Assembly (NCBI GenBank): GCA_903828455.1
Contig: CAIKMJ010000027.1
Span: forward strand, 124,001-188,000
Direction of reading: 5' to 3'
Source of the DNA: an uncultured Acidobacteriia bacterium
GTDB taxonomy: Bacteria > Acidobacteriota > Terriglobia > Bryobacterales > Bryobacteraceae
Length of the DNA: 64,000 bases
How positions within the stretch are numbered: position 1 is the stretch's first letter; the number at the start of each line of letters is the position of its first letter. The position numbers and the translations under genes are program-made. The notes beneath the pieces are model-generated. The model was not told the DNA's origin. It did not search any database and worked only from the letters and a program-made list of their open reading frames with translations. This document shows positions 2,294-61,938 of the stretch, in pieces.

Positions 2294-3499
2294 GTGCTCA
2301 GCCGCACCTTCAAAGCCTTCCAGTACCCCAACTTCCGCCTCCTCTGGGCCGGAGCCTGCACCTCGTCCATCGGCACCTGGATGCAGGAAATCGCCCAGAA
2401 CTGGCTCGTCCTGGAAATGACCAAGTCGCCTTTCCTGCTCGGCCTCGATGCCTTCCTCGGCGACATCCCGATCTTCCTGTTCTCCCTCGTCGGCGGCGTC
2501 CTCTCCGACCGCATGGACCGCCGCATCCTGCTGCTCGGCTCGCAGTTCGTCCAGATGGTGAGCGCTCTCACGCTCGCCATCCTCATCGGCACGCACCATA
2601 TTCAGGTCTGGCACATTCTGCTTTCCTCGTTCGTGGTCGGCACCGCCCAGGCCTTCGGCGGCCCCGCCTACTCGGCGCTCGTCCCAAGCCTCGTCGATAA
2701 GGAAGATCTACCCAACGCCATCGCGCTCAACTCCATCCAGTTCAACCTCGCGCGCGTCGTCGGTCCGGTGCTCGGCGGACTCGCCCTGCAGTACGCCGGC
2801 GGCGCCTGGTGCTTCGGCCTGAATGCTCTCTCCTTCGTCGCCGTCATCTTCTCGCTGCTGAAACTGAACATCGATTTCAAGCCGGCCCGCACCTCGGATT
2901 CAATCCTGACTGGCGTCAAACAGGGCATTTCGTTCATCCGTCAGCAGGGCGCCATGGAGACCCTCATCGGCATCGCCTTCTTCATGACGCTGCTCGCCGT
3001 CCCGACCATCACCTTCCTCCCGGTCTTCGCCAAGGACGTGTTCCACCAGAACGCCATGACCTACACGCTCTTCCTGGTCTGCTCCGGCCTCGGCTCCATC
3101 ACCGGCGCGCTCACCGTGGCCACGCTCGGCAACATCGCCAACAAAGGCCGTATCGCTCTCGCCATGCTGATCGCTCTCGGCTTCGGCATCGTCGCCTTCG
3201 CGCAATCGACATCGGTGGTGCTCAGCTGCGCGCTGCTGTTCGTCACCGGCGCGGTTCTCATGTGCGCGTTCGCCATGATCGCCTCGCTTGTGCAGTTGAT
3301 CACACCCAACGACATGCGCGGCCGCGTCATGAGCGTCTACAACGTGGCGTTCCGCGGCGGGATGCCGTTCGGCAGCATTTTGACCGGCCGGCTTGTACCG
3401 ATTTTGACTGCTCCGTTCGTCTTATTGGTGAATGGCGTGGTGCTGGCCGTACTTGGAGCCTATTTCCTGCTCGTCCAGCGGAAGGTCGCGAAGTTGTAA
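2294..3499 (+). CDS. MFS transporter, MFS_3/EntS-like exporter
   Basis: A 401-residue inner-membrane protein with about 12 hydrophobic segments. The N-terminus (FRLLWAGACTSSIGTWMQ) and the loop GGVLSDRMDRRILLLGSQ between helices 2 and 3 match the MFS_3 group, which includes enterobactin exporter EntS and many drug-efflux proteins. The start is a GTG, 17 nt after the VOC stop. The substrate cannot be inferred; small-molecule efflux is the family role. The stop codon runs directly into a 16-bp tandem repeat. Confidence 0.85.
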   Translation: MLSRTFKAFQYPNFRLLWAGACTSSIGTWMQEIAQNWLVLEMTKSPFLLGLDAFLGDIPIFLFSLVGGVLSDRMDRRILLLGSQFVQMVSALTLAILIGTHHIQVWHILLSSFVVGTAQAFGGPAYSALVPSLVDKEDLPNAIALNSIQFNLARVVGPVLGGLALQYAGGAWCFGLNALSFVAVIFSLLKLNIDFKPARTSDSILTGVKQGISFIRQQGAMETLIGIAFFMTLLAVPTITFLPVFAKDVFHQNAMTYTLFLVCSGLGSITGALTVATLGNIANKGRIALAMLIALGFGIVAFAQSTSVVLSCALLFVTGAVLMCAFAMIASLVQLITPNDMRGRVMSVYNVAFRGGMPFGSILTGRLVPILTAPFVLLVNGVVLAVLGAYFLLVQRKVAKL

Positions 3500-3542
3500 C
3501 GAATCAGGCGAGAAACGAATCAGGCGGAAAACGAATCAGGCG
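3498..3542 (+). repeat. 16-bp tandem repeat at the MFS stop codon
   Basis: AACGAATCAGGCG occurs at 3498, 3514 and 3530 with an exact 16-bp period. The first copy includes the last two bases of the TAA stop at 3497-3499. Confidence 0.85.
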
Positions 3543-3553
3543 ATAGAAGACTT

Positions 3554-4264
3554 ATGAGAATTGCTTTGGTCCGGTTGGCCGTGGGAAGCCTGGCTGCAAT
3601 GTCGATTGCCGCCTCGCTGGCTCTGGCTGCCGACGATCTGGAAAAGCTCCGCGACCGTCAGGATCGCGTAGCACTGGAAAAGACTGCGGCGGCTCTCGAT
3701 GCCGCGGCGGCGAAGACACCGAATGACGCCAATGGCTGGTATCGCGCAGCCATTGCGTGGTCTTATGCCGCCGAAGTCGCCACCGAACTGCGCGACAAAG
3801 CCAACGCTCAGACCGCGGCCGAAACCGGCGTGAAAGACGCCGAAAAGGCCATCGCCATCAACGGCAAGGTCGCCGATTATTATCGCGTTCTCGGCACGCT
3901 CTGCGGCCAGGTCATTCCCGCCAATCCCATCCTGGGCGCGCTGGCGTACGGCAAACGCGCCAAGGAATCTCTCGATAAGGCCATCGAGCTCGATCCGAAG
4001 TCGGCCCGCGCGTACGTTGCGCGCGGCGTCGGCAACTACTACCTGCCCGCCAACTTCGGCGGCGGCGCCGAAAACGCCATGAAGGACTTCCGCCAGGCTA
4101 TCTCGCTCGATGCGAAGAACGCCGATGCCTACCTGTGGCTGGGCATGGCACACAAGAAGCTCAAGCAGAACGCCGAGGCGCGCGAGGCCTTCACCAGGTC
4201 GCTGGCCATCGATCCCGATCGCATCTGGGCCAGGGATCAGCTCGAAAAGACGCCCGCCCAGTGA
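3554..4264 (+). CDS. Secreted tetratricopeptide-repeat protein
   Basis: A 236-residue protein with a Sec signal peptide (residues 1 to about 25, MRIALVRLAVG then AASLALA ahead of ADDLEK). The mature part is helical with TPR-like 34-residue units, clearest at about 130-235: SARAYVARGVGNYYL, then NADAYLWLGMAHKKLKQNAEAREAF and ALDPDR-like spacing (SLAIDPDRIWARDQL). TPR proteins scaffold protein contacts, so a periplasmic adaptor role is likely. The stop overlaps the NUDIX GTG start (GTGA at 4261-4264), so the two are translationally coupled. Confidence 0.75.
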   Translation: MRIALVRLAVGSLAAMSIAASLALAADDLEKLRDRQDRVALEKTAAALDAAAAKTPNDANGWYRAAIAWSYAAEVATELRDKANAQTAAETGVKDAEKAIAINGKVADYYRVLGTLCGQVIPANPILGALAYGKRAKESLDKAIELDPKSARAYVARGVGNYYLPANFGGGAENAMKDFRQAISLDAKNADAYLWLGMAHKKLKQNAEAREAFTRSLAIDPDRIWARDQLEKTPAQ

Positions 4265-6311: not shown

Positions 6312-7481
6312 ATGTCAAAACTGTCAATAAAAGACCTCGATCTCAAGGGAAAACGCGTTTTCATCCGGGTGGACTTCAACGTCCCGCTCGCCCCGGGTGG
6401 GCAGGAAATCACCAGCGACAAGCGCATCCGCGCTTCTTTGCCGACCATCCAGTACGCGCTCGAACAGGGCGCCGGGCTGGTGCTGGCCTCGCACCTCGGC
6501 CGCCCCAAAGGGAAGCCGAATCCTGAGATGAGCCTCAAGCCGGTCGCGGTGAAGCTCGCCGAACTGCTTGGCAAGCCGGTGGCCTTTGCGCCGGACTGCA
6601 TCGGTCCCGCCGTCGAAGCCATGCTCCCCGCGCCGGGCGAAATCCTGCTGCTGGAAAATCTGCGCTACCACGCCGAGGAAGAGGCCAACGACGCGGCGTT
6701 TTCCGAAAAGCTGGCGAAGCTCTGCGATGTTTACGTGAATGACGCGTTCGGCACGGCGCACCGCGCGCATGCCTCCACGGTCGGCATGATCCGGTTCGTG
6801 AAGCAGGCTGCCGCCGGACTGCTGATGGATCAGGAACTGAAGTATCTCACCATGGCGACGAAGAATCCGGCGCGCCCCTGCGTTGCTATTCTCGGCGGCG
6901 CCAAGGTGTCGGACAAGATTGAAGTCATCGAAAATCTGGCGAAGGTTGTCGATAAAGTGCTGATCGGCGGCGCCATGGCGTATACGTTCCTCAAGTCGCA
7001 GGGCGAGCCGGTGGGCAAGTCGCTGGTGGAAGACGACAAGCTCGATCTGGCGAAGAAGTTACTCGCCGAATATCCCGGCAAGATTGTTCTCCCGGTGGAT
7101 CACGTGGTGTCTGCCGAGTTCAAAGCCGGCGCGGACAATCAGACGGTGACGCAGGTGCCGGACGGACTCATGGCTCTCGACATCGGCGCGCAGACCGTGG
7201 CCAGCTATTCGGCCATCATCGCGGGGGCGAAGACAATCATCTGGAACGGGCCGATGGGCGTCTTCGAAATGCCGCCCTTCGATAAGGGCACGGTGGCGCT
7301 GGCGAAGGCCGTTGCCGAATCGGGCGCGGTCTCGGTAGTGGGCGGCGGCGATTCGGAAAAGGCAATTAAGGTGGCCGGCGTCACCAGCCGGATCACGCAC
7401 GTTTCCACCGGCGGCGGCGCTTCGCTCGAGTTCCTGTCCGGCATGGAACTGCCCGGCGTGGCGGCGCTCACCGACAAGTAA
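6312..7481 (+). CDS. pgk: Phosphoglycerate kinase
   Basis: A 389-residue enzyme of normal bacterial length that interconverts 1,3-bisphosphoglycerate plus ADP and 3-phosphoglycerate plus ATP in glycolysis and gluconeogenesis. The signature RVDFNVPL is at residues 19-26. Other diagnostic segments are [59 protein letters not shown] and the nucleotide-binding [10 protein letters not shown] with [11 protein letters not shown] near the C-terminus. It stands alone, not in the gap-pgk-tpi arrangement seen in many bacteria. After the stop there are two 14-bp spaced copies of AGTAAG[CT]GAC and then a strong hairpin. Confidence 0.97.
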
Positions 7482-7516
7482 GCGACTATCAGTAAGTGAC
7501 GATAATGAACTGACGA

Positions 7517-7913: not shown

Positions 7914-9161
7914 CTACCTGCTCGGCTTCAGCCGGATCTCCGCCGTCTCACCGCTCACCTCAATCTTCGTGCCGAACCGCTTCGACGCCTCGGCCAGCCG
8001 CTGCAGAATGTAGCCTGCCCGCGCCCCGGTTGCCGGCGCAGGTAAGCCGCGCGTATCGAGAAACTGATTGTTGGTGAATGCGTTGTGAACCTCCGGCACG
8101 CCGTCGCCAATATTGTTCATCACGATCGGCCGGAACGAGATCGCTTTCACGCTTTTCCCCTGCCACGCGACCTGCGCCACCACGCTCTCCCAGCTCATCG
8201 GTTCATCGATATAAGTCAGGACCGGCGGCACGTTGTAGATAAAGTTTCCGAGGTCGTAAAAGATGGGCCGGCCGCGATAGATCTCGACGCCATGCAGCAG
8301 CGGCGCGCCATGCATGACAACGATGTCGGCGCCCGCGTCAACTTCCGCGTGAGTCCACTTGCGGAGCCACTCGTTCGGGGCCAGTCGCTCCTCCATGCCT
8401 TCGGTGAAGATGGTCGAGAACGAGCGGTTGCCGAAGACGTGATTGTGCTGATAGACGATCACGACATCGGCGCGGCCGCGCGCTTCGCGGATGCTTTGCA
8501 GGATGCGGCGGGAGTCTTCCTGGTTCGGCGTGTTGGCTGGCGCGCCCGGCAGATCTTCGGTCGCCTCATTTGCTCTGCCGCCCGCTTCGACGCGCAGTTC
8601 ATTCACGCCGGGCCGGTCCGCGGTTGCGCTGCCGCCCGCGGTAATCAGACCGGAGGCGCTGGCGATCAGCGCAATCGTTCCATTCGGCGTGTGAAGATAG
8701 CCTGGCGCGCTGGCCTCGGCCAGATTGTTGCCGGTGCCGGCGTGAGCGATCTTCCGTTTGTCGGCTTCACGGAGCGTGTTCTGAATGCCGGTCGCCTTGA
8801 GATCGAAGGCGTGATTGCCGGAGAGCGACAGCAGATTCACGCCGAGCGCGCCGAGCGCGTCGAGAGCTTCGGGCGGCGTGAGAAAGCCGCGGCCCTCCTG
8901 AACGGCCTCGCCCGGTTCGGCAATCGCGGCTTCGAGATTGGTGAACACCACGTCGCCGCGCAGCAGCCCTTTCATGGCCGGGATTGCCGAGGGCGCGGTG
9001 GCGCGAAGATCCGAACGGAGCATTGATTGTCCGGCGAGCGTGATCGTCATCGCCGCCGTCGCCGATTGCGCGCCGGCGCCCCGGGCCAGGGAAGCGGCCA
9101 GTATCAGGGCGAAGCACGCCGCTCCGATGCCGGTCATTCGTGCGGTTCGTGGTTTATCCAT
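7914..9161 (-). CDS. CapA-family (PGA_cap) metallophosphatase-like protein
   Basis: A 415-residue protein with an N-terminal signal peptide (AACFALILAASLARGAGA). The calcineurin-like PGA_cap fold is shown by LRGDVVFTNLEAAI, LLSLSGNHAFDLKATG, ADVVIVYQHNH, IVVMHGAPLLHGVEIYRGR and IFYDLGNFIYN. In the family these supply the di-metal ligands. The best-known member, CapA, takes part in poly-gamma-glutamate export, but most homologues are uncharacterised and no other pgs genes are near. The start codon (9159-9161) lies inside the first unit of a 14-bp tandem repeat, so the upstream region is a repeat array and not a normal promoter. Confidence 0.8.
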   Translation of the reverse strand: MDKPRTARMTGIGAACFALILAASLARGAGAQSATAAMTITLAGQSMLRSDLRATAPSAIPAMKGLLRGDVVFTNLEAAIAEPGEAVQEGRGFLTPPEALDALGALGVNLLSLSGNHAFDLKATGIQNTLREADKRKIAHAGTGNNLAEASAPGYLHTPNGTIALIASASGLITAGGSATADRPGVNELRVEAGGRANEATEDLPGAPANTPNQEDSRRILQSIREARGRADVVIVYQHNHVFGNRSFSTIFTEGMEERLAPNEWLRKWTHAEVDAGADIVVMHGAPLLHGVEIYRGRPIFYDLGNFIYNVPPVLTYIDEPMSWESVVAQVAWQGKSVKAISFRPIVMNNIGDGVPEVHNAFTNNQFLDTRGLPAPATGARAGYILQRLAEASKRFGTKIEVSGETAEIRLKPSR

Positions 9162-9246
9162 CGTTGTTTATCCGTCGTGGTGTGTCCGTCGTGGTGAAAC
9201 GGTCGTGGTGTATCCATCATGGTGTATCCATCATGGTGAAACCCCT
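9149..9246 (-). repeat. 14-bp tandem repeat spanning the CapA-like start codon
   Basis: About seven 14-bp units of the type GTGGTGTATCCATC (plus strand), with the unit boundaries kept throughout. Read on the minus strand, the first unit contains the real ATG and two further units also carry ATG. Confidence 0.85.
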
Positions 9247-18009: not shown

Positions 18010-18201
18010 TCACTCGATATGCGTGAGTCGGTTCATTGAGTCCGGCAACTGAGCAGAGCGCTCGTTGAGAGCTTCGACGCATTGCGTGAGAGCGGCGATG
18101 CGTTGGTCGGCCTGCTGGCGCTGCTCCGCCAGCTTTGCGATCTGCTCGTCGAGACTCTGCTGGATGGTGGCGAGGTTGACCAGTCGTTCGTCGAGTGTCA
18201 T
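18010..18201 (-). CDS. Small coiled-coil protein downstream of recA
   Basis: A 63-residue protein that is one continuous heptad pattern (LVNLATIQQSLDEQIAKLAEQRQQADQRIAALTQCVEAL). It is the size and style of SlyX-like small coiled coils but without their C-terminal signature, so I leave it unnamed. It lies 64 nt after the recA stop on the same strand, separated by a 14-bp repeat array. Its ATG is preceded by AAGCG from that array and has no obvious ribosome binding site. It ends 6 nt from the pnp terminator. Confidence 0.5.
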   Translation of the reverse strand: MTLDERLVNLATIQQSLDEQIAKLAEQRQQADQRIAALTQCVEALNERSAQLPDSMNRLTHIE

Positions 18202-18205
18202 CGCT

Positions 18206-18267
18206 TGCCTGTTATGGCTCGCCCGTTATCGCTTGCCCGTTATGGCTCGCCTGCTGTCTGCCCGTTA
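18206..18267 (-). repeat. 14-bp repeat array copying the recA stop codon
   Basis: On the minus strand the recA stop TAACGGGC (18267) recurs as TAACGGGC or TAACAGGC at 18242, 18228 and 18214, with exact 14-bp spacing for the last three. Each copy thus contains a TAA. Confidence 0.85.
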
Positions 18268-19284
18268 CGCTACGGCGGCGCTCTGTGCCTTCTGGCCAAT
18301 GCCCAGCGCTACCCGCAGTTCGTCTTCGAGTCGCGCGGCGGTCTCCGGATGCTCCTTCAGGAAGGCACGCGAATTGTCGCGGCCCTGCCCGATTCGCTCT
18401 CCCTTGTAGCTGAACCAGGAGCCGGATTTTTCCACCAGATTCCTTGCCACGCCGAGGTCGATGAGATCGCCTTCGCGCGATGCGCCTTCGCCGTAGAGTA
18501 TGTCGAACTCCGCTTCCCGAAACGGTGAGGCGACCTTGTTCTTCACCACCTTCACGCGCGTCCGGTTGCCGACCACCGCTTCCCCGTCTTTAATCGCCGC
18601 CGTGCGCCGCACGTCGATCCGCACCGACGAATAGAACTTGAGCGCGCGGCCGCCGGTGGTGGTTTCCGGGCTGCCGAACATCACGCCGATCTTTTCGCGA
18701 ATCTGGTTGATAAAGATCAGGCACGTGCCGGTGCGGGCCACCACGCCGGTCAGTTTGCGCAGCGCCTGCGACATCAGGCGCGCGTGCAGACCCACGTGAT
18801 TGTCCCCCATCTCGCCTTCGAGTTCGGCCTTGGGGACCAGAGCGGCCACCGAATCCACAATCACGATGTCGATGGCGCTGGTCTGTATGAGCGCCGCGGC
18901 GATTTCGAGGGCCTGTTCGCCGGTATCGGGCTGAGAAACGAGAAGGTTGTCCACGTCGACGCCGAGCTTGCGGGCGTAGCCGGGATCGAGGGCGTGTTCG
19001 GCGTCGATGAATGCAGCAACGCCGCCCTTTTTTTGCGCCTGCGCGACAACCTGGAGGGCGAGAGTGGTCTTGCCGGAAGATTCGGGGCCGAACACTTCAA
19101 TGACCCGGCCGCGCGGGAAGCCGCCGACACCGAGCGCGGCATCGACCGACAGGCAACCCGACGGGATAACCGAAACCGGCACCACGTTATCGGCGCCCAG
19201 ACGAAGCACGCTGCCCTTGCCGAACTGCTTGTCCATCGCCAGAAGGGCGAGATCGATAGCCTTGCGCTTTTCCAGTTCCGTCAT
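18265..19284 (-). CDS. recA: Recombinase A
   Basis: A 339-residue RecA, the ATP-dependent strand-exchange protein of homologous recombination and SOS co-protease. Walker [10 protein letters not shown] is at residues 66-74, followed by [19 protein letters not shown], the Walker B region [25 protein letters not shown], loop L2 and [22 protein letters not shown]. The C-terminal tail is short and alanine-rich. GGAAAGG shortly before the ATG is the likely ribosome binding site. An upstream terminator (19400-19434) isolates it from the DinB-like gene, so its promoter lies in 19285-19400; I did not recognise a LexA box there. Confidence 0.98.
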
Positions 19285-24840: not shown

Positions 24841-24893
24841 CCGGTCACTTTATTTCCCGGTCACTTTATTTCCCGGTCGCTTTACTTCCCGGT
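24841..24893 (-). repeat. 16-bp tandem repeat at the M61 stop codon
   Basis: Plus-strand unit CCGGTCACTTTATTTC at 24841, 24857, 24873 and (partial) 24889, exactly 16 bp apart. On the minus strand it is the peptidase end GGGAAGTAAAG copied downstream, stop codon included. Confidence 0.9.
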
Positions 24894-26783: not shown

Positions 26784-26871
26784 CGCGGAAGTCTCTATGA
26801 TAGCGAGAAGTGCCACGAAATCAAGCAATTAGGATTTGGGTGCCGGATTGCACTCCAACGGCCGGAGCTGA

Positions 26872-36559: not shown

Positions 36560-36567
36560 ACGGCGCC

Positions 36568-37919: not shown

Positions 37920-37926
37920 GCCGCCG

Positions 37927-39279
37927 CTATCTCCGGTTCCACCAGACCAAAAGTCCCGACGTGATGACAATCAGCGGCAGGAAGATCAGGCTCGTGGCAA
38001 ATATCCAGCGCATGCCGTTGCCGGTGACATTCAGACGCCGGTCTTCGGGCGCTTTGGGACGGATGGAGATCAGGTCTTCATCCGACGTCAGCCAGTTCAT
38101 CACATTCAGCATCAGATCGCGGTTGCCGATGGGCGCGGCAAGAATGGAATTCGACATCCAGTTCGAACTGCCCACCACCACCACGCGGCCCTGACTGGCT
38201 CCGGTGCCGACTGTGGCCGCCGCTCCCAGCGCGAACGGTCCCTTGTCGGCCTTGCCGAGGTCCTCTTCTTTGATCGGCAGTTTCGGATTGGTCATGCCGA
38301 AGCTCTCCTGCGAACTCGAGAACAGCTTCTGCGCCGGGCTCCTGGCTTCCACGCTGCGCGCCAGCGGGAACACCGTTGCGATGTCTGACATCACGCGCAC
38401 AATCGGGTGCTGCTCGTAGCTGGCGGCCACGGGCGAAAGCTGCCCGAAGACGCGGCTCGCCGAACTCAGGTCGAGAATCACATCGCCCTTCGGTGTGATG
38501 CCCCACTCGGTGGCCAGCGCGGCCAGCTTCGGCGTATCGCCCATCTTCTGCTGCGGCAGATTGAGCAGCGGATCGAAATTCAGCACGACGCGCCCGCCCT
38601 CCTGCACAAACTTGCGGATGCCGTCGATCGCCGGATCCAGATAATCGCTCTTCGGACCGCCGACCACCAGCACGCTGCAGGCCTTCGGCACTTCGGGCTT
38701 CTCGATCAGCGAAATCGCCTGCGTCCGGTAGTTGCTCTTTTCGATCGCTTCCTTCGCGGAGGAGTAACCTTCGCGCTCCGTATCGGTGAGGCTGTGCTCG
38801 CCCGAACCGGTGACGAAACAAATCGTCTTCGAGCCGGTCTTGGAGGCGCGGATCAGCGCGCCGGTGAGTTCTTCTTCGGTGAGCGCCTTGGCGGTTTCCT
38901 TCTTCTGGCCGTTATCGATGATGATGTCGCCGATATTGCGTGCGCCTTCGACGCGCGCCACATCCGGCTTCTTATCGGGATCGACGTAATTGATTTTGAT
39001 CTTCGACGACAGGTTCTTATAGCGGTCGAGCATGTCGCGCGCGCTTTCGAAACTGTCGCTCTTGTTGAAGTAATAAACGTTGACGTCGCTCTTCAGATTC
39101 TTCGCGACCTTCATCGTCTCGTCCGACAGCGTGAACTGCTTGTTGGCAGTTACGTCGACGGTCTTGTTGTATTGACTGGAGAGCCAGTTAGCCGCTCCAA
39201 CCACCGCGAGGATAACGATGAGATAGACGGTGACGAATACACCGTACTTGGTTCTGCGTGCCTGCATCAGGTCAGCCAT
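37927..39279 (-). CDS. GldG-like ABC transporter auxiliary protein
   Basis: A 450-residue protein with transmembrane helices at each end (YGVFVTVYLIVILAVVGAANW near residue 12-32; WIFATSLIFLPLIVITSGLLVWW at the C-terminus). Between them lies the ABC_transp_aux (GldG-type, ThuA-like) domain: DVTANKQFTLSDETMKVAKNL, INYVDPDKKPDVARVEG, TICFVTGSGEHSLTDTEREG and LVVGGPKSDYLDPAIDGI. It presumably sits beside the permease and works periplasmically. The ATG shares its first base with the permease TAA (39279), so translation is coupled. Confidence 0.85.
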   Translation of the reverse strand: MADLMQARRTKYGVFVTVYLIVILAVVGAANWLSSQYNKTVDVTANKQFTLSDETMKVAKNLKSDVNVYYFNKSDSFESARDMLDRYKNLSSKIKINYVDPDKKPDVARVEGARNIGDIIIDNGQKKETAKALTEEELTGALIRASKTGSKTICFVTGSGEHSLTDTEREGYSSAKEAIEKSNYRTQAISLIEKPEVPKACSVLVVGGPKSDYLDPAIDGIRKFVQEGGRVVLNFDPLLNLPQQKMGDTPKLAALATEWGITPKGDVILDLSSASRVFGQLSPVAASYEQHPIVRVMSDIATVFPLARSVEARSPAQKLFSSSQESFGMTNPKLPIKEEDLGKADKGPFALGAAATVGTGASQGRVVVVGSSNWMSNSILAAPIGNRDLMLNVMNWLTSDEDLISIRPKAPEDRRLNVTGNGMRWIFATSLIFLPLIVITSGLLVWWNRR

Positions 39280-49487: not shown

Positions 49488-49533
49488 GAACATTTATACG
49501 CCGGGCGTTTGGAGCGTGTCGAGCGGCGGCCGG

Positions 49534-49561
49534 TTTTAATCATTAAAATTTGCAACGTTGC
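49534..49561 (+). promoter_or_regulatory. Two adjacent palindromes upstream of a PEP-CTERM gene
   Basis: TTTTAAT-C-ATTAAAA (49534-49548, perfect) is followed 3 nt later by GCAACGTTGC (49552-49561, perfect). They lie 38 bp before the GTG start and look like protein-binding sites. Confidence 0.5.
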
Positions 49562-49598
49562 GAGAGGGCATAGCACTAAATGCGCGGAGGTAAACGGT

Positions 49599-50375
49599 GT
49601 GACAAAACGATTCGTACCGATTTACGGCCTGTATCTGGCGGCGCTGGTGCTTTTAAGTCAGCCACAACAGGCCAAGGCGATGTCGATATCGATTGTGGAG
49701 TGTTCGGTGGCGCAATTTGTCTGCCCGAACGGGAATATTATCGGAGCGGCAGTCAACGTAAATGATTTTTTGCAGGATAACGACGCGGGGCTGAATGCCA
49801 ATCTGGCGGTGGGTGGCTTCACGCTGCCGCTGACGGGAACGGCGACCAACACAAACGGAATCTTCATCAGCCTGACCGGGACCGGGACGGCAACTTCACC
49901 GGCGGGTCTGGCGGCGGAGACGTGGATCGACGTGACCGTGACGCAGACGTACAACATGAATCCGGGCATCGTGGGGTTGATCGGCGCGGCGGTGGATTTC
50001 AATCAGGGCAACTGCAACGCGGCGGCGGTGGCGGCGGATAGTTCGGTGCAGGCCACGCTGTCGGTAAACGGCACGCTGCTGCCGGTGCTGGGTGCGGCGG
50101 GCAACGGGCTCGGCATCGGAACGTGCGCGACGGCCGTGCCGAATGCGGGCGGCGGCGGAACTTTCAATCTGGCGGGAGGGCCGGTGTTCGGCATCATCCC
50201 GGGGCAGATTACGCTGACCGGCCTTGCGCAGTTCGACTTCAAACCGGCGGCGGGGGCGCAGACGATCGACGTGCCCTATGGCGAATCGGATACGGCGCCG
50301 GAGCCGGGCACATGGCTGCTGATGGGTTCGGGCGGCGTGATGCTCGGGCTGGTGCGGAGGAAGAGGAGGGCGTAG
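49599..50375 (+). CDS. PEP-CTERM sorting-domain exoprotein
   Basis: A 258-residue exported protein with signal peptide (VPIYGLYLAALVLLSQPQQAKA), a long beta-rich body containing paired cysteines (VECSVAQFVCPNG; NQGNCNAAA; GIGTCATAV), and C-terminus APEPGTWLLMGSGGVMLGLVRRKRRA, a complete PEP-CTERM. The GTG start at 49599 has an ideal GGAGG at 49586-49590. Function unknown; probably part of an extracellular matrix. Immediately after the stop lies a seven-unit repeat array. Confidence 0.85.
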   Translation: MTKRFVPIYGLYLAALVLLSQPQQAKAMSISIVECSVAQFVCPNGNIIGAAVNVNDFLQDNDAGLNANLAVGGFTLPLTGTATNTNGIFISLTGTGTATSPAGLAAETWIDVTVTQTYNMNPGIVGLIGAAVDFNQGNCNAAAVAADSSVQATLSVNGTLLPVLGAAGNGLGIGTCATAVPNAGGGGTFNLAGGPVFGIIPGQITLTGLAQFDFKPAAGAQTIDVPYGESDTAPEPGTWLLMGSGGVMLGLVRRKRRA

Positions 50376-50379
50376 CAAG

Positions 50380-50490
50380 AGCGCCGAGCAAATCGGAGCG
50401 CCGCGCAAATCGGAGCGCCGAGCAAATCGGAGCGGAGCCAATCGGAGCGGCGTCGATCGGAGCCGCGCCAATCGCAGCCGCGTCCATCGG
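50380..50490 (+). repeat. 17/15-bp tandem array after a PEP-CTERM gene
   Basis: Seven units: three of 17 bp (AGCGCCGAGCAAATCGG) and then four of 15 bp (AGCGGAGCCAATCGG and variants). It starts 5 nt after the TAG stop. Confidence 0.88.
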
Positions 50491-50566
50491 AGAGCAGCCG
50501 GGGCCGCAACGGGACGACGTTCGTTCCGCGCGGCCCCGACTTGCGTTTGACGGGATTCGCGGTGTT

Positions 50567-50630
50567 GCGAGAAGTAAAACCGGCGAGTAGTAAAACGGGC
50601 GAGAAGTAAAACCGGCGAGAAGTAAAACCG
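50567..50630 (+). repeat. 16-bp tandem array before the PLC-like gene
   Basis: Four units of GCGAGAAGTAAAACCG at 50567, 50583, 50599 and 50615, with exact 16-bp period; partial fifth unit follows. Each unit carries a TAA. Confidence 0.9.
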
Positions 50631-50719
50631 GTCGCAAGTCAAATATGTGACAGAATAGCGGCACCCGAATTGTCGGGAATAATCCGCCATAAGCGGGGAA
50701 GAAAAACGGGAGTTCGGCA

Positions 50720-51943: not shown

Positions 51944-52336
51944 ATGGCCGATTACAAAATTGGTGCGGTGCACGAGCAACTGGTGGTGGTGGGCGATGAG
52001 AGCGCGATCACGTTTCTCGGGCCGGAGGGGCCGCGCGTGCTGTCCACGCCGCAGATGATCCTGCATATGGAGCGGGCCGCGCGGACGCTGTTGCTGCCCA
52101 TGCTCGACGAAGGCTTCCAGTCCGTGGGGACACACGTGAACGTGGCGCACAAGGCGGCGGCGCCGATGGGGGCGCGCGTGTCGGTGACGGCAGAGCTGCT
52201 GTCGGTGAGCGAAAACGGGCGCGCCGAGTTTCGCGTGGCGGCGCGAATGGGCGCGAAGGTTGTGGGCGAAGGAATGCACCAGCGGGCCATCATCCACATC
52301 CGGCAGTTCGGGGAGAAAGTGGCGGAATCCGCGTAA
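51944..52336 (+). CDS. Hotdog thioesterase, fluoroacetyl-CoA thioesterase-like
   Basis: A 130-residue FlK-type hotdog protein. It has STPQMILHMERAARTLLLPMLDEGFQSVGTHVNVAHKAAAPMGARVSVTAELLSV, with the long helix and the threonine/glutamate/histidine region (THVNVAHKA) in the FlK position. These enzymes hydrolyse acyl-CoA thioesters, only rarely fluoroacetyl-CoA; a general acyl-CoA housekeeping role is likely. 48 bp after the PLC-like gene, same strand. Its stop is followed by a 13-bp repeat. Confidence 0.85.
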   Translation: MADYKIGAVHEQLVVVGDESAITFLGPEGPRVLSTPQMILHMERAARTLLLPMLDEGFQSVGTHVNVAHKAAAPMGARVSVTAELLSVSENGRAEFRVAARMGAKVVGEGMHQRAIIHIRQFGEKVAESA

Positions 52337-52350: not shown

Positions 52351-52389
52351 TAAACTGGCGGCGCAAACCGGCGGCGTAAATCGGCGGCG
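52351..52389 (+). repeat. 13-bp tandem repeat after the thioesterase gene
   Basis: Three 13-bp units of TAAACTGGCGGCG type at 52351, 52364 and 52377; TAAACTGGGG recurs at 52401 as the probable -10 region of the next gene. Confidence 0.8.
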
Positions 52390-55622: not shown

Positions 55623-58172
55623 ATGCCATTTACCATTCAGCCAAGTCGCGAATTTGTGGTCCGGCCGTCGTTGCCGGCGGCGCTCGGGCGCATGCAGGAG
55701 CTTGCGTACAACATTTTGTGGGCGTGGGAGCCGGCGATCCGCGTCATCTTCCGGCGGCTCGATCCGCAGCTTTGGAAGGAATCGAATTACAATCCGGTGG
55801 TCATGCTGGGCACGGTGCCGCAGGCCACGCTGGAGCGCGCCGCGGCCGATCCGCGCTACCTCTCGCTCTACCAGATTGCCTGCCAGCGGTTCGATGCCGA
55901 AACGCAGTCGCTGCCCGCGGCGGACGGCAAACTGATCGCCTATTTTTCCGCCGAGTACGGGCTGACCGAGTGTCTGCCGGTATATTCGGGCGGCCTCGGC
56001 ATTCTCTCGGGCGACCACATGAAGTCGTCGAGCGATCTCGATCTGCCGCTGGTCGGCGTGGCGCTGCTCTATCAGCTGGGCTACTTCCGGCAGTATCTGA
56101 ATTCGGACGGCTGGCAGCAGGAACGGTATCTGGAGAACGACTTCTACTCGCTGCCGATTCAGCCGGCGCTCGATGTCAACGGCGAGCAGAAGGTCGTGTA
56201 CGTGCAGTTCCCCACCGGGCCGGTCGCGATCCGCGTCTGGATCATGCACGTGGGGCGGATTCAGATGCTGTTCCTCGATACCAACACGCCGCTGAATGCG
56301 AACCCGGAAGACCGCGCGATTGCCAGCCAGCTGTATGGCGGCGACAACGACACGCGCATCCGGCAGGAGATCGTGCTGGGCATCGGCGGCATGCGCGCGC
56401 TCGAAGAGCTGGGCTACAAGCCAACCGTGTTCCACATGAACGAGGGGCACTCGGCGTTTCTGGCGATCGAGCGCATCCGGCTGCTGATTGAACGCCAGGG
56501 TCTGACGTTCGAAGAAGCGCTGGAGGCGGCGCGCGTGAACAACGTGTTCACCACGCATACGCCGGTGCCGGCGGGGATCGATCTGTTCGATCCGGGCCTC
56601 GTGTATCACTACTTCAATCAGTTCTGCCGCGATGCGGGGATTGAGTTCGACCGCTTCATGGCGCTCGGGCGGCAGAACGCGCGCGATGCCGGCGAGCCGC
56701 TGTCGATGGCGATCCTGGCGCTCAACACCTCGTGCTGGCGCAACGCCGTGAGCCGGCTGCATCGGGATGTTTCGCAGGAGATGTGGCATCCGCTGTGGCC
56801 CGCCCTGCCGGTGGCCGAGACGCCCATCACATGGGTCACCAACGGCGTGCATATGCCGAGCTGGGTGAACGGCGATCTGGCTTCGCTCTACGACCAGTAT
56901 CTGGAGCCGGACTGGCGCAGCCGCTGGGGCGATGCCGCGGTGTGGAATCAGGTGCGGGAGATTCCGGATGAAGAGTTGCTCGAAGTGCACCGGCGGCGCA
57001 AGCGGCGCCTGATTGCGTTCGTGCGGGAGCGCCAGACTGCGTCGGCGTACCGGCGGAAGGCGGCGGCGACGGAGGTGCGGCGCGCGGCCGAGGTGCTCGA
57101 TCCGCATGCGCTCACCATCGGCTTTGCGCGGCGCTTTGCCACTTACAAACGGGCCACGCTGCTGTTCCGCGATGCCGAGCGGCTGAAGAAGATTCTGTGC
57201 GACCGGGAGCGGCCCGTGCAGATTCTGATTGCCGGCAAGGCGCATCCCAAGGACCAGCCCGGCAAGGCGTTCATTCGCGAAATCGTGCAGCTTTCGCGCG
57301 ATGAGGATCTCTGGAAGCGCCTCGTGTTCGTGGAAGATTACGACATGAAGGTGGCGCGCGAACTGGTGCAGGGCGTCGACGTGTGGCTGAACAATCCGCG
57401 GCGCGGCGAAGAGGCCTGCGGGACGAGCGGCATGAAGGCGGCGATGAACGGCGTGCTGAATCTGTCGGTGCTCGACGGGTGGTTCGACGAAGCCTACGAA
57501 ATCTCCGGCGGCTGGGCCATCGGGGATCGCGAAGAGTATCACGAGGAGCAGGACGCGCTGCACGCCTCGAGCATTTACTATCTGCTCGAAAACGAGATCG
57601 TGCCGATGTTCTACGCCCAGAGCGAGGGCAGCGGATCGAGCGAGTGGGTGCGCCGCATGAAGACGTCGATGACGAACCTGACGCCGGCCTTCGATGCGCG
57701 CCGCATGGTGCATGACTACACGCAGCGGCTCTACGATCCGGCGCACAAGCAGTGGGGCGCGGTGAAGGCGGACAATTTCACCGGAGCGCGGGAGAAGGCG
57801 GCGTGGAATGCGCGCGTCCACAAGTTGTGGCCGGAGGTGGAGTTCGCCGACGTGAGCCCGAGCCCGGGCGGGCCGGTGACGGCGGGCGGTGCGGTGTCGA
57901 TCCACGCGGGCCTGCGGCTGGGCGAACTGGTGCCGGGCGATGTGAAGGTGGAGTGCGTGCTGGGCCGCATCGGGGCGAGCGGCGGGCTGGAGGGGACCGA
58001 AGTCGTGCTGCTGCCCTTTGCCGGGATGGATGGCGGCGTGGCGTACTTCTCGCGCGAGGTGACGCCGGCGCAGACCGGACGCCTCGGCTACGCGGTGCGC
58101 GTCAGCGCCAACCATTGCGAGGATCCCATGACGCGGCCCGTATCGGGGCTCATGAAGTGGAGCGGCCGCTGA
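55623..58172 (+). CDS. glgP: Alpha-glucan (glycogen/starch) phosphorylase
   Basis: An 849-residue GT35 enzyme releasing glucose 1-phosphate from alpha-1,4 glucan ends. It begins with the DUF3417 N-terminal domain of bacterial short-type phosphorylases (MPFTIQPSREFVV, LAYNILWAWEPAIR). The phosphorylase domain includes AYFSAEYGLTECLPVYSGGLGILSGDH, FHMNEGHSAFLAIERIR, TFEEALEAARVNNVFTTHTPVPAG and the PLP-lysine region EEACGTSGMKAAMNGVLNLSVLDGWFDE. Two candidate -10 boxes precede it (TACAAT at 55591-55596; leader about 20 nt). The C-terminal 120 residues have the beta-type extension. GNAT starts 16 nt inside its end. Confidence 0.94.
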   Translation: MPFTIQPSREFVVRPSLPAALGRMQELAYNILWAWEPAIRVIFRRLDPQLWKESNYNPVVMLGTVPQATLERAAADPRYLSLYQIACQRFDAETQSLPAADGKLIAYFSAEYGLTECLPVYSGGLGILSGDHMKSSSDLDLPLVGVALLYQLGYFRQYLNSDGWQQERYLENDFYSLPIQPALDVNGEQKVVYVQFPTGPVAIRVWIMHVGRIQMLFLDTNTPLNANPEDRAIASQLYGGDNDTRIRQEIVLGIGGMRALEELGYKPTVFHMNEGHSAFLAIERIRLLIERQGLTFEEALEAARVNNVFTTHTPVPAGIDLFDPGLVYHYFNQFCRDAGIEFDRFMALGRQNARDAGEPLSMAILALNTSCWRNAVSRLHRDVSQEMWHPLWPALPVAETPITWVTNGVHMPSWVNGDLASLYDQYLEPDWRSRWGDAAVWNQVREIPDEELLEVHRRRKRRLIAFVRERQTASAYRRKAAATEVRRAAEVLDPHALTIGFARRFATYKRATLLFRDAERLKKILCDRERPVQILIAGKAHPKDQPGKAFIREIVQLSRDEDLWKRLVFVEDYDMKVARELVQGVDVWLNNPRRGEEACGTSGMKAAMNGVLNLSVLDGWFDEAYEISGGWAIGDREEYHEEQDALHASSIYYLLENEIVPMFYAQSEGSGSSEWVRRMKTSMTNLTPAFDARRMVHDYTQRLYDPAHKQWGAVKADNFTGAREKAAWNARVHKLWPEVEFADVSPSPGGPVTAGGAVSIHAGLRLGELVPGDVKVECVLGRIGASGGLEGTEVVLLPFAGMDGGVAYFSREVTPAQTGRLGYAVRVSANHCEDPMTRPVSGLMKWSGR

Positions 58173-58720
58173 CGGGCGCGCCGCCGCCCGACCTGACCGC
58201 CGCTCCGGCGCTCGAAACCGAACGGCTGCGTCTGCGCGCCCACCGCGCCGACGATCTGGACCCCTGCGCGGAGATGTGGGCGGACCCGGCGGTTGTTCGA
58301 TACACCATCGGCACTCCCTCGACGCGCCAGAAGACGTGGATGCGCCTGCTGGCTTATCGCGGGCACTGGGCCCTGCTGGGCTACGGCTACTGGGCGGTGG
58401 AGGAGAAGCTCACCGGGCGCTACATCGGCGAACTCGGTTTTGCCGATTTCCGGCGCGACGGCCTGCCTGCCATCGAAGGGCTGCCTGAGCTGGGTTGGGC
58501 GCTGCTGCCACGGGCGCAGGGCAGGGGCTATGCCACCGAAGCGCTGCGGGCGGCGGTGGCGTGGGGCGATCGCCGGTTTGGCGCGCAGCGCACCGCGTGC
58601 CTGATTCACCGCGACAATCTGCCGTCATTCCGCGTGGCCGGGAAGCTGGGCTACACAATCTTCGCGACTGCCTCTGACGACGGGGCGCTCCCCGCGGTCC
58701 TGCTCCGCACGCCGGTTTAA
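58157..58720 (+). CDS. GNAT acetyltransferase, RimJ/RimL-like
   Basis: A 187-residue GNAT that moves an acetyl group from acetyl-CoA to an amine. It has the RimL-type N-terminus LETERLRLRAHRADDLDPCAEMWADPAVVRY, the beta4 region YWAVEEKLTGRYIGELGFADF, pyrophosphate-loop GWALLPRAQGRGYATEALRAAVAWG and the final NLPSFRVAGKLGYT. Start GTG 58157 overlaps glgP. The stop is followed by two copies of TTTAAACGGGCG. Confidence 0.82.
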   Translation: MERPLTGAPPPDLTAAPALETERLRLRAHRADDLDPCAEMWADPAVVRYTIGTPSTRQKTWMRLLAYRGHWALLGYGYWAVEEKLTGRYIGELGFADFRRDGLPAIEGLPELGWALLPRAQGRGYATEALRAAVAWGDRRFGAQRTACLIHRDNLPSFRVAGKLGYTIFATASDDGALPAVLLRTPV

Positions 58721-58740
58721 ACGGGCGTTTTAAACGGGCG
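58716..58740 (+). repeat. 13-bp duplication of the GNAT stop region
   Basis: TTTAAACGGGCG at 58716-58727 and 58729-58740; the first copy contains the TAA stop at 58718-58720. Confidence 0.8.
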
Positions 58741-58744
58741 CGGT

Positions 58745-60952
58745 CTACGGCGCTTCGAACAAACGCTTGTCCGGTTCCATGACGGTGAAGACCGTCGGAT
58801 TCCGCCGCGCGCCGGGGGCGAGAAACATGTCGCGCAGCGTCGACGCGGTGGCATCGCGCAGACCAAGCGGCGGAAGCCCCAGCAGCTCAAGCACCGTGCG
58901 CTCCACCGACGCGAAGCCGGCATTGGTGCGCGAAAGATAAGTTCGTTTGACCGACGGGCCGGCGACGAGCAGCGGCGTGCGGCTCGCATCGATGTGATCG
59001 TAGCCGCGCGAGGCGCCGGCGGTGGTGATGAAGACAACCGTGTCGTCCCAGCCCGGCGCGTGCGACAGGGCTTCGACAATGCGGCCAATGTTGAGGTCGG
59101 CGTCGGCGGCGAAGGATGCCTCCCAGGGGAAGCGGCCGGACAGGGCCGTCGGGCGGGGCAGGTCGATGGTGGTGAATGAGCGAGCCGTGGAGGAGTGATC
59201 GGAGGAGGAGAGAGCCGTGGAGGAGCGAGCCGTGGAGGAGAGAGCGGCGAAGTCGTCGAGGAAGCGCGCGGCGGATTCGTAGCGGGTGGTGCGGATGCCG
59301 TGGCGCTGGATATGTGCGGCGAGCGCGGCGACCTCCGCGCGTGCGGTCGGCTCGTCATCGGAGTAGTAGTTGTCGCTGAAGGCGCCGTACTGAGCGATGT
59401 GGTGGAGATTGGGCGAGACGCCCGCATCGTGCAGACTGAACTGGCCCGCGGCGCCGTTCACCGTGCCGTGCAGGCCGAAGCGGGCAAGGGCGCCTGCGCC
59501 GGCGACCTCCGTGTTGCCGACCCGCAGGATGTCGCCGAAGTATTCGTCGTACGTGCGCGGTTCGGTGGTGATGAGCACGACGTGGCGCGGCGCTGCGGGC
59601 ATGCTTGCGGGCATTGCCGCGGGCGGCGTGCCAGCGGTGTGGACATCCGACGTGAAGCCATTCGCCTCCAGCACCGTGGCGGTGAGCCGCGCGAATTCGC
59701 CGGCTGGCGGCATCACGAACGTCGTCACCGACCCCCCGCCGGTGACGGGCGGCTCGCCATAGTCGAAGATCGGCAGGCGCAGCAGGCTCGGCGCGCCGCC
59801 GCGCCCGCGCTGATTGAGGATGAAGACGCGGTCGCCGAAGACGGAGACGGCCACCGGCATCCAGGCGGCGGGAATGTGTCCGAGGATGACCGGGTCTGCG
59901 GGGCCGAGGTCGATCGCCGCCACGGCGTTGATGCCGGGTTCGGCCACCAGCAGCCACTTGGCGGCGGGGTCGAAGGCGAGCCCCGCGGGAGCGATGCCGC
60001 GCAGCTCCTGCAGTTGCGGGATGCGCAGCGCGATGCGCGAGACGATGGCGCGGGTGGAGGCGGGGGTGGAGGCGCGGGTGGAGGCGGGGGTGGAGGCGGG
60101 GGTGGAGGGCGAGATCACCACCACCGAGTCGCCATCGGCCTCCGGCGCGGCGTCGGAGACGAACACGCGGCCCGCGGCGGCAAGAATTGCGGAGGGCCGG
60201 CCACCCGTCTCCGTGCGGTCAACGATGGCGGGCGCGGCGGGATCGCGCAGATCCACGGCCGTCACCGATCCCGTGGGCGACGCATGCGCGATCCACAGCG
60301 TGCCGGCCGCGGCATCGAGCGACAGCGCAACAGGCGGGGCATCGAGCGCGAGGCGGGCGAGGAGCCGCCCGGTCCGTGTGTCGATGATGTGGAGGGCCGC
60401 TGTGCCGGCGTCGAGCGCGCAGAGCAGATGGCGCGCGCCGTCGAGGGCGAGCGGTCCGCTGGTGGCGCCGCTCGGCAGCTGGATCAGTTTGCGCCGGTCG
60501 CCGCTCTGCGTATCGATGAGGCGGATGCGGCCATTTGCGCCTTCCGAAACCCAGAGCGCGCGTTCCGATTCGAAGGCGAGGCCGGCAGCCACCGATTGCC
60601 ACTCCGCTTCGCCCTTCAGCGGCGCCGAACCCGCACTACTACGAGTCCAGAGGTGGTGGACGCGCCAGACCAGCCTGACGGGCGGCTCAATGACGGTGAC
60701 GCCAGGCCGTTCCGCGCCCGTGTCGGCGGTGGCGGCAATGCCTTTCGGGCTGATGGCAATGGCGGCGGCAGCGGGGCCTGTTTCCAGTTGCTTGCCCCAG
60801 GGCAGCAGAATGCGGCCGCCCGGCAGTACGGCGGCGGATTCGCCGGCGGTGGGGAAGCGTTCGGCCGCGGGGGCGTGGAACTCCGCCGCTGAAACAAAAG
60901 CGGCGGCGAGCAGCACACTTGTGACGAGGAGTATGGCGCGGTTCGGGAGCAA
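58745..60952 (-). CDS. YVTN beta-propeller/phosphoesterase fusion
   Basis: A 735-residue exported protein with a signal peptide (AILLVTSVLLAAAFVSAAEF). Residues about 60-380 form a YVTN/YncE-type propeller (GRLLARLALDAPPVALSLDAAAGTLWIAHASP). A C-terminal alkaline-phosphatase-like phosphoesterase module follows (TTEPRTYDEYFGDILRVGN, LHDAGVSPNLHHIAQYGAFSDNYYSDDEPT, ILELLG-type ending), as in the common acidobacterial propeller-phosphoesterases. The metal region normally read as DD-QGG-DHVDAHRSP here reads TTAGASRGYDHIDASRTP, so the site looks altered. Two stretches of short coding repeats (STPAST near residue 290; SSTARSSTALSSS near 580) break the sequence. Confidence 0.72.
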   Translation of the reverse strand: MLPNRAILLVTSVLLAAAFVSAAEFHAPAAERFPTAGESAAVLPGGRILLPWGKQLETGPAAAAIAISPKGIAATADTGAERPGVTVIEPPVRLVWRVHHLWTRSSAGSAPLKGEAEWQSVAAGLAFESERALWVSEGANGRIRLIDTQSGDRRKLIQLPSGATSGPLALDGARHLLCALDAGTAALHIIDTRTGRLLARLALDAPPVALSLDAAAGTLWIAHASPTGSVTAVDLRDPAAPAIVDRTETGGRPSAILAAAGRVFVSDAAPEADGDSVVVISPSTPASTPASTRASTPASTRAIVSRIALRIPQLQELRGIAPAGLAFDPAAKWLLVAEPGINAVAAIDLGPADPVILGHIPAAWMPVAVSVFGDRVFILNQRGRGGAPSLLRLPIFDYGEPPVTGGGSVTTFVMPPAGEFARLTATVLEANGFTSDVHTAGTPPAAMPASMPAAPRHVVLITTEPRTYDEYFGDILRVGNTEVAGAGALARFGLHGTVNGAAGQFSLHDAGVSPNLHHIAQYGAFSDNYYSDDEPTARAEVAALAAHIQRHGIRTTRYESAARFLDDFAALSSTARSSTALSSSDHSSTARSFTTIDLPRPTALSGRFPWEASFAADADLNIGRIVEALSHAPGWDDTVVFITTAGASRGYDHIDASRTPLLVAGPSVKRTYLSRTNAGFASVERTVLELLGLPPLGLRDATASTLRDMFLAPGARRNPTVFTVMEPDKRLFEAP
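59181..59241 (-). repeat. Coding repeat (STA-type) in the phosphoesterase
   Basis: GAGCCGTGGAGGA occurs three times within 61 bp, encoding a Ser/Thr/Ala-rich insert. Confidence 0.7.
60048..60107 (-). repeat. 12-bp coding repeat (STPA/STRA)
   Basis: Five 12-bp units, GCGCGGGTGGAG and GCGGGGGTGGAG alternating, in frame. Confidence 0.88.
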
Positions 60953-61187
60953 GATCGTCGTCGGCCCGGAGGCCTACTGCTGTTGTACCGCTAACTCAGG
61001 TACTGTGGAAACCGGGATCGGATTAATACGGGGGGAGCAATTTGTTGGAATCGATCTGCGCCATGCTGGAGTCAAACCGCATGTTCGTACAATAAAGTAC
61101 AGAAAGAATAAAGTTCTTGAACCTGAATTAAGTCGGATGTAGAGTACTAGAAGTACTATTTAGTTTGTCGGTCGGGGAGGAAGTTCA
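60953..61187 (+). promoter_or_regulatory. AT-rich control region of the Crp-type gene
   Basis: No gene in 235 bp of unusually AT-rich DNA. A fair sigma-70-like promoter is TTGAAC (61117-61122), 17 bp, TAGAGT (61140-61145). AGTACT-AGA-AGTACT (61143-61157) overlaps the -10 and start point. GTAC also occurs at 60985, 61087 and 61097 and in AGGTACT near 61000, suggesting several sites for one regulator. Confidence 0.5.
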
Positions 61188-61886
61188 ATGGAGATGGCAC
61201 CAGGGTTGATCTCGTCGGCTCCGCAGCCGAGAGTGATGGAAGATCCGTTGGCGCATCTGCCGTGCTCAACGCAGATTGAGTGCCGCAGGGGGCAGACCAT
61301 ATATTCAGGCGAACTGCCGTCGGACAGCATTTACCTCGTGATTGAGGGCAAGGTGAGGGTGTGCCGCAAGACGGGGGACGGCCGGACGGTGGTGATCGAT
61401 ATCTACCAGACGGACGACTTTTTCGGCGAGGCGGCGTTTCTGGGGGCGCGGCCGGCAGCCGAGTTCGCCGTGGCAACCGAGCGGACCAAGCTGATGAGCT
61501 GGAGGATTGGCGAGATCGAGGAGATCGCGGCGCGGCGTCCGAAGCTGGCCGTGGCCCTGCTGCAGCTGCTGGCGAAGCGGACGGCCGAATTCGGCGAGCG
61601 GATTGAAAGCTTTTCGCTCGATAACATTGCGCGGCGCCTCGCGCGTTCGCTCATCCGGTTCTCCGAACGGATGGGCGAGAAGGGCGCGGACGGCGCGGTG
61701 CGGATGATTCCCTTCACGCACGAACTGCTTTCGCAGTACGTGGGCACCTCGCGCGAGATTGTGACGCACTACATGAACCAGTTCCGGAGGCAGGGGCTGC
61801 TGGAGTATTCGCGCCAGGGCATTCTGCTGCAGCGCGAGGCGATGGAGAACTGGCTGGCGCACGAAGCGAGCACGGCCGAAGCCTAG
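61188..61886 (+). CDS. Crp/Fnr-family transcriptional regulator
   Basis: A 232-residue regulator. The N-terminal cyclic-nucleotide-binding beta barrel (residues about 25-140) reads QTIYSGELPSDSIYLVIEGKVRVCRKTGDGRTVVIDIYQTDDFFGEAAFLG; the usual cAMP arginine-serine pair is not apparent, so the ligand is unknown. A long C-helix follows, then a winged HTH with LLSQYVGTSREIVTHYMNQFRRQGLLEYSRQGILL. No Fnr cysteines are present. GGGAGGAA precedes ATG 61188. The symmetric AGTACT sites over its promoter suggest self-control. Stop region is a repeat array. Confidence 0.88.
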   Translation: MEMAPGLISSAPQPRVMEDPLAHLPCSTQIECRRGQTIYSGELPSDSIYLVIEGKVRVCRKTGDGRTVVIDIYQTDDFFGEAAFLGARPAAEFAVATERTKLMSWRIGEIEEIAARRPKLAVALLQLLAKRTAEFGERIESFSLDNIARRLARSLIRFSERMGEKGADGAVRMIPFTHELLSQYVGTSREIVTHYMNQFRRQGLLEYSRQGILLQREAMENWLAHEASTAEA

Positions 61887-61938
61887 GCCGAGAAGCATAC
61901 GCCGAGAAGCATAGGCCGAAGCGTACGCCGAAGCTTAG
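61875..61938 (+). repeat. Tandem repeat bridging two convergent stop codons
   Basis: Five units of GCCGA(GA)AGC[ACGT]TA[GC] type (12 or 14 bp) at 61875, 61887, 61901, 61915 and 61927. The first contains the TAG of the Crp-type gene, the last the TAA (minus strand) of the TfoX gene. Confidence 0.85.

Follow-up and report, generated by a model that had tools for sequence, protein, structure and literature searches.

What is already known about repeats of this kind?

Minisatellite or variable-number tandem repeat (VNTR) loci are familiar in bacteria: born of slippage, they represent local tandem duplication without any mobile element, they preserve the reading frame when they fall within genes, and they are defined by copy-number polymorphism from strain to strain. 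Our subject is a set of short tandem arrays that resemble such loci in being local duplications without a mobile element that are frame-preserving in genes. They were first noticed, at gene ends where stop codons seemed to be copied, in a stretch of 64,000 nucleotides from an uncultured Acidobacteriia bacterium of the Bryobacteraceae (assembly GCA_903828455.1, contig CAIKMJ010000027.1, positions 124,001 to 188,000), which we call the window.

The original prediction, made from the window alone, knew of no description of such a system, but a near description does exist, for the tandem repeats of Borgs, which are archaeal linear extrachromosomal elements (PMC9879509). In that paper's account of the repeats, the units are private, their lengths within open reading frames (ORFs) are divisible by three, 14-38% of the intergenic ones are divisible by three, and about half of all repeats are either intergenic or begin with a unit that lies wholly or in part inside the end of a gene. 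Our arrays look much the same: the unit is private to nearly every site (a unit 10-mer is common to 23 of 8385 array pairs), in-gene units are mostly divisible by three (50/54), intergenic ones are unrestricted (31/76, or 41%), and some first units lie in gene ends, with 25 array/gene pairs covering a stop. Abundance is likewise specific to particular genomes, slippage is discussed as the origin of the Borg repeats, and the partial repeats that flank Borg arrays may have their counterpart in a mean of 5.4 extra matched bases here, possibly decayed third copies. Borg repeats, as described there, are perfect and were analysed at lengths of at least 50 nt with at least three units, whereas ours are often imperfect, with mostly two to three copies; Borg units are enriched in A, whereas the composition of ours is near the background (A content of 0.208 in 74 gap-array units versus 0.212 in non-coding sequence); and ours are found in a bacterial genome.

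A second relative is the set of constant-size, variable-sequence tandem repeats that Subirana and Messeguer described from Bacillus and other bacteria (PMC8161180). By that description, they share with our arrays a species-specific abundance, a unit sequence that varies between arrays, a preferred unit length and a location largely outside genes, and they differ in having units of 20-21 or 52 nt in at least four copies, against a peak at 13-15 bp here, and several sequence families per species, against few families here. No description of such arrays in acidobacteria was found in the literature searched, most subscription papers being outside the reach of that search. The arrays are, in our view, no new system but an unusually active case of repeat formation of a kind already known, and what they add is that the Borg-like pattern of private units, frame-preserving within genes and of any length between them, exists also in a bacterial genome. 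We think it likely that they represent frequent, position-blind duplication by slippage, whose products are then filtered by selection.

How common are the arrays, and in which genomes?

The window belongs to a 4.40-Mb draft genome (4,401,036 bases in 80 contigs, 98.6% complete), of which 836,266 bases, including the window itself, were sampled for array counts; a subset comprised 436 kb, and the window gives 18 of the 73 arrays in that subset. The best named matches to the window's pgk come from two 'Terriglobia' genomes, of which one is labelled subdivision 3 (77% and 74% identity), in keeping with a probable acidobacterial origin. Arrays were counted in the samples at periods of 8-40 and a Tandem Repeats Finder score of at least 50, a threshold at which weaker examples (such as the thioesterase array described below) go uncounted, while the sites in the window itself were taken at a score of at least 30. 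Genes were called with a simple home-made caller, with approximate start positions, and those adjoining the window arrays were checked against Pfam. The relatives are represented by one genome per species, the nearest showing RecA and Pgk identities of about 85%.

There can be little argument that the arrays exceed chance, since the 73 in 436 kb compare with 2, 4, 0, 0 and 0 in five shuffles that preserve dinucleotides, and intergenic pieces taken alone hold 32 arrays, where ten shuffles of them gave 0-2. In the full sample there are 130 arrays in 836 kb, or 15.5 per 100 kb. A genome of the same genus, G005, holds 26 in 404 kb (6.4 per 100 kb), one of the same family and another genus, G022, holds a single array in 404 kb (0.2 per 100 kb), and one of the same order, G028, holds 6 in 400 kb; five more genomes of the same genus, at 100 kb each, gave 5, 1, 4, 1 and 2. 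Small samples (3-24 kb) from 22 relatives range from 0 to 16.7 arrays per 100 kb, and the highest of these, G009, came down to 4.0 per 100 kb in a 100-kb sample, while G013 and G016 stand at 12.5 and 8.7 per 100 kb in small samples only. In a mixed collection of 80 named loci, drawn from many phyla, there were 55 arrays in 1.31 Mb. Array abundance thus varies much among genomes. A RecA tree gave no resolved common ancestor for the array-rich genomes and did not group the window's genome with G005. The strong contrast in density among related species (15.5, 6.4 and 0.2 per 100 kb in the three genomes of this family with samples of at least 400 kb) makes this genus a natural comparison for the question of what governs how often short stretches are duplicated in tandem and how long the units are.

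What do the units have in common?

Very little, other than their length. The claim that the units are unrelated from site to site has largely stood, in that units of 13-16 bp have a mean best-rotation similarity of 0.484, compared with 0.480-0.482 in three shuffled sets, and this mostly private character fits the absence of a mobile repeat. The few exceptions are G-rich units and one pair of 37-bp arrays (L051:14763-15106 and L206:13134-13296), which are distant from one another, have unit 10-mers in common and possibly belong to a small dispersed repeat family. A shared seed motif was rejected, as no 5-mer or 6-mer was enriched among the units after Bonferroni correction, and hairpin-forming units were rejected as a cause, as hairpin stability showed no excess beyond shuffled units (mean z -0.20 over 49 arrays with a period not divisible by three).

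Length, by comparison, has a clear peak. Among arrays of three copies in gaps between genes (80% identity), periods of 13, 14, 15, 16 and 17 bp account for 6, 11, 13, 4 and 4 cases, and periods of 9-11 bp for 3 in total, where shuffled counts never exceed 0.1 at any of these periods. The peak at 13-15 bp is seen under both two-copy and three-copy criteria, and there is a shortage at 9-11 bp. There is again a small excess at 6, 7 and 8 bp (8, 2 and 4 three-copy arrays versus 3.8, 0.2 and 0.6). In prokaryotes generally, repeats with units of 4-11 bp are reported to be normally or weakly over-represented (PMC4060949). G005 has the same peak, in small numbers (2, 1, 4, 2 and 1 three-copy gap arrays at periods 13 to 17), and G022 has no three-copy gap arrays at periods from 9 to 32. 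A seemingly sharp lower cut-off at exactly 12 bp is partly a product of the 12-base criterion. Most arrays are short, 79 of the 130 having fewer than three full copies, and identities between the copies of an array, in the 436-kb subset, run from 73 to 100%.

How might the arrays arise, and what shapes their distribution?

We begin with the reading frame. The 130 arrays divide into 76 that touch an intergenic gap and 54 that do not, the latter being within genes or at a margin of the sampled piece; the period is divisible by three in 50 of the 54 and in 31 (41%) of the 76, and the four exceptions among the 54 were scored at 50 (three arrays) and 51 (one) by Tandem Repeats Finder. Exact two-copy duplications behave alike, those inside genes having periods of only 12 (13 cases) or 15 (12 cases), and the 29 outside genes having periods that span 12-30, of which 14 or 15 account for 14 cases. 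This is what would be expected of a position-blind process whose products are filtered by the reading frame. It also tells against the suggestion of the original prediction that the process might recognise gene ends, as does the placement of arrays within a given gap. To judge placement, the extra copies were removed and one footprint (a unit plus its partial copy) was placed at random within the same gap, within any gap of the same type, or within all gaps; a simpler null with a footprint of one period leaves the conclusion unchanged. Under the same-gap null, 24 gap arrays cover a stop, compared with 25.5 expected, while 10 cover a start, compared with 16.8 expected (P 0.007).

We consider that a local process such as replication slippage, which had already been proposed for the window, is the best mechanism on offer, as judged from the pattern of the arrays. 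In this lineage, short stretches, mostly of 12-30 bp with the peak at 13-15, would often undergo tandem duplication; the likeliest route is that, as DNA is synthesised, a strand slips from one short direct repeat to another, with further copies gained and lost after the first duplication. Among 54 exact two-copy duplications, a mean of 5.4 matched bases continues beyond the second copy, where geometric chance would put about 51 of the 54 at 0-2, and such extra matched bases fit a strand that has slipped from one short direct repeat to the next. Selection would then filter the products: inside genes, hardly any units would survive but those divisible by three, and arrays would be thinned out at start codons and in divergent gaps, which bear promoters, and tolerated in short gaps and across stop codons. 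Tolerance at stops is easily understood, because a duplication spanning a stop keeps the first stop in place, and the copied stop codons would then be a by-product, accounted for without any new mechanism.

What weighs against slippage and selection?

Quite a number of observations do not sit comfortably with a position-blind process. The extra partial matches may also be decayed third copies, and the peak at 13-15 bp misfits a simple slippage model, where short slips should be commonest. Within genes, the 51 arrays that lie wholly inside a called gene lean to both ends (8, 5, 4, 9, 2, 1, 4, 6, 2 and 10 in successive tenths from start to stop), with 18 in the first or last tenth. The avoidance of starts is weaker for arrays with 12-19-bp units in the window's genome (8 versus 11.8, P=0.074), with starts approximate as noted. 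In addition, stops are covered more often than in the wider nulls: 24 times versus 15.1 expected over all gaps (P=0.011) and 17.5 over gaps of the same type (P=0.057), the latter comparison becoming 19 versus 11.3 (P=0.007) for 12-19-bp units, so gap type alone leaves the stop excess unexplained. In G005, stops are covered by 8 of 14 arrays, versus 2.8 expected over all gaps (P=0.003) and 3.1 over the same type (P=0.004), and even the same-gap null leans towards stops (8 versus 6.1, P=0.084). Arrays within 20 bp of a stop, the enrichment on which the original prediction had staked its case, number 37 of 76 versus 22.8 over all gaps (P<0.001) and 26.2 over the same gap type (P 0.004), and this excess is lost within the same gap (37 versus 34.4, P=0.24), other than a lean for 12-19-bp units (28 versus 24.0, P=0.07).

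How can this be reconciled? The density of arrays per kb of gap is 1.75 in convergent, 1.23 in co-directional and 0.59 in divergent gaps (chi-square over gap types, P=0.013), and short co-directional and convergent gaps tend to hold more arrays per kb than the longest ones. The excess of stops over non-coding positions arises because arrays favour short and convergent gaps, so that it sits mostly in which gaps hold arrays and not in position within the gap. Avoidance of promoters and starts accounts most simply for the gap pattern, the residual stop excess we assign, by indirect inference, to selection and gap length, and a modest bias towards 3′ ends may exist alongside.

A bolder reading is a lineage-specific feature of replication or repair in this genus that makes size-limited (about 13-15 bp), sequence-independent duplications genome-wide, at an unusual rate and with some bias to the 3′ ends of transcripts, a Borg-like phenomenon in a bacterial chromosome; we regard this as possible, though we would not bet on it. 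Several candidate causes have been tried and set aside. Loss of mismatch repair was rejected, the MutS_V and MutL_C families both being matched in the window's genome; Exonuclease VII and RecJ, whose loss was also considered, are both matched there too and show no difference that tracks array density, nor does an extra Y-family polymerase. Ku has no match in the window's genome and is matched in all 18 others of the genus (partially in G008 and G009), which points to a possible loss of non-homologous end joining. As a cause of the arrays, loss of Ku was rejected, since Ku is matched in the array-rich G005 and unmatched in the array-poor G022 and G028 as well; no cause is assigned.

Unlikely, too, is a process tied to the ends of genes, such as to transcription termination or to head-on conflict between replication and transcription, that duplicates preferentially at stops. 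It would account directly for the stop excess over all non-coding positions in both genomes and, more weakly, for that over gaps of the same type; convergent gaps are also the richest in arrays, thirds of the co-directional gaps of at least 60 bp hold 12, 8 and 7 of 27 arrays from stop to start (3, 1 and 1 of five in G005), and the last tenth of the gene holds 10 of the 51 in-gene arrays. It is hard, however, to square such a process with the lack of any stop excess within the same gap, or with arrays that are found all along genes and are nearly as frequent in the first tenth as in the last.

That the arrays are RNA elements, whether terminators, protectors of mRNA ends or small RNAs, is very improbable, despite the many arrays near 3′ ends and in convergent gaps and the RNA roles proposed in the accounts of the Borg and Bacillus repeats (PMC9879509, PMC8161180), because hairpins show no excess stability, the units are unrelated and the array at the end of recA is not conserved in relatives. 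We are at least as sceptical of the idea that the arrays are footprints of double-strand-break repair, or target duplications left by transposons. Fill-in of staggered ends does resemble units of 12-17 bp, and repair may differ in a genome that stands alone among 19 of its genus without a Ku match; against this, Ku tracks array density in neither direction (G022, G028 and G005, above), arrays of at least three copies in a single register would still have required slippage afterwards, and the extra matched bases point to misalignment guided by homology.

Selection for back-up stop codons against read-through, another reading offered for the window, is extremely unlikely, even though the copied stops are real enough. 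Among the 25 stop-covering array/gene pairs in the 836-kb sample, an in-register codon lies downstream in 24, and stops make up 42 of the 50 such codons. Their periods, however, leave remainders of 0, 1 and 2 on division by three in 9, 6 and 10 cases, and this absence of an in-frame excess argues against back-up stops, as does the limited share of gap arrays, 24 of 76, in which a stop is covered at all; a study of additional stop codons likewise reports no compelling evidence of such selection in eubacteria (PMC6764699). Three arrays (L042:15813-15867, L046:5812-5861 and L050:18248-18294) each straddle a junction at which the stop of one gene overlaps or abuts the start of the next, co-directional one; they hold codons of both kinds and could possibly affect translational coupling. 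Finally, we give almost no credence to an assembly artefact, for although this is a draft in 80 contigs and the copy number of repeats is unreliable in draft assemblies (a point made also in PMC9879509), copies within arrays differ (73-100% identity), an assembler would not arrange for 50 of the 54 arrays that touch no gap to obey the reading frame, and several draft relatives are array-poor (1-5 per 100 kb in the five further genomes of the genus, with other small samples at 0-16.7).

What does the window itself contain?

Ten arrays at gene ends or junctions had been listed in the window, and nine of them are reported by Tandem Repeats Finder; the exception is a weak two-copy 14-bp match at 7477-7508, seen by eye at the stop of pgk (6312-7481, forward strand; Pfam PGK). 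The further claim that the stop is copied in most of these turns out to be overstated. It holds for four genes. The array of 16 bp and 3.4 copies at 24841-24894 covers the stop of an M61 peptidase (24882-26828, reverse strand; Peptidase_M61), with TAA copied twice in register; that of 12 bp and 3.2 copies at 36567-36605 covers the stop of a DUF4340 gene (36594-37970, reverse), with TAA copied twice and in frame; and two copies of a 13-bp unit at 58716-58740 cover the stop of a GNAT gene (57752-58720, forward), with TAA copied once in register. The fourth is recA (18265-19284, reverse; RecA), downstream of which Tandem Repeats Finder reports a 14-bp array at 18200-18251 that we extended by eye to the recA stop, giving 18200-18267. 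By eye, it consists of three copies of TAACGGGC and one of TAACAGGC, the first TAA being the recA stop, which opens the first TAACGGGC copy, and the TAACGGGC-type copies extend from there as far as the next ORF, which is only weakly called.

Three other sites carry no copied stop. The array of 16 bp and 2.9 copies at 3498-3543 overlaps the last two bases of the stop of an MFS transporter gene (2294-3499, forward; MFS_3), the codons in its register being AAA and AAA. A 17/15-bp array at 50379-50492, reported in two overlapping rows, begins 3 bp after the stop of a PEP-CTERM gene (49509-50375, forward), and the same gap holds a 16-bp array at 50567-50631, with an unlike unit, that was missing from the original list. 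A 13-bp array at 52352-52389 lies 15 bp past the stop of a FlK-type thioesterase gene (51944-52336, forward; FlK), and the TAAA within it is not the stop of this gene. The remaining cases are mixed. In the 12/14-bp array at 61874-61938, which has a 26-bp higher order and lies between convergent Crp-type and TfoX_N genes (both by Pfam), the 26-bp register gives CAT, and TAG recurs, by eye, in alternate 14/12-bp units only; the pgk stop is copied just once and imperfectly, again by eye; and the CapA-like site is at the start of its gene (7914-9161, reverse; PGA_cap), with a 14-bp array of 6.6 copies and a 42-bp higher order at 9147-9242 (9147-9238 by Tandem Repeats Finder).

The picture of arrays at gene ends also left out those inside genes. 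Two 15-bp arrays, of 6.7 copies at 26964-27063 and of 2.9 copies at 28417-28460, lie within a DUF6600/FecR gene (26872-28905, forward), and the gene at 58745-60952 (reverse) contains a 15/30-bp array at 59178-59245 and a 12-bp array of 5.2 copies at 60047-60108; the periods of all four preserve the frame.

Are the recA and pgk arrays conserved?

Relatives have been compared at two of these gene ends. In the first 100 bp past the recA stop, none of 16 recA loci of the same genus has a called array (16 of 18 relatives, the other two giving only a second recA or fragments), and by eye there is none at the end of pgk in seven relatives, so the window's arrays are not conserved at these two ends. 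In G018, a 33-bp array begins 135 bp downstream of the recA stop. Inside recA itself, G005 and G013 carry 15-bp frame-preserving repeats of about four and two copies (L012:1463-1521 and L014:2286-2317), the former near the end of the gene. Downstream of recA, about 9 of the 16 relatives (among loci L002-L017) appear by eye to have a common gene that starts shortly after a TCATATAAT-like sequence, and the window's genome has another neighbour in this place. A second recA-like gene, with 73% identity to the recA of the window, is found at G000:C30:75306-76301 in the window's own genome, and a match of 73-77% is listed also for 17 of the 18 relatives in the genus.

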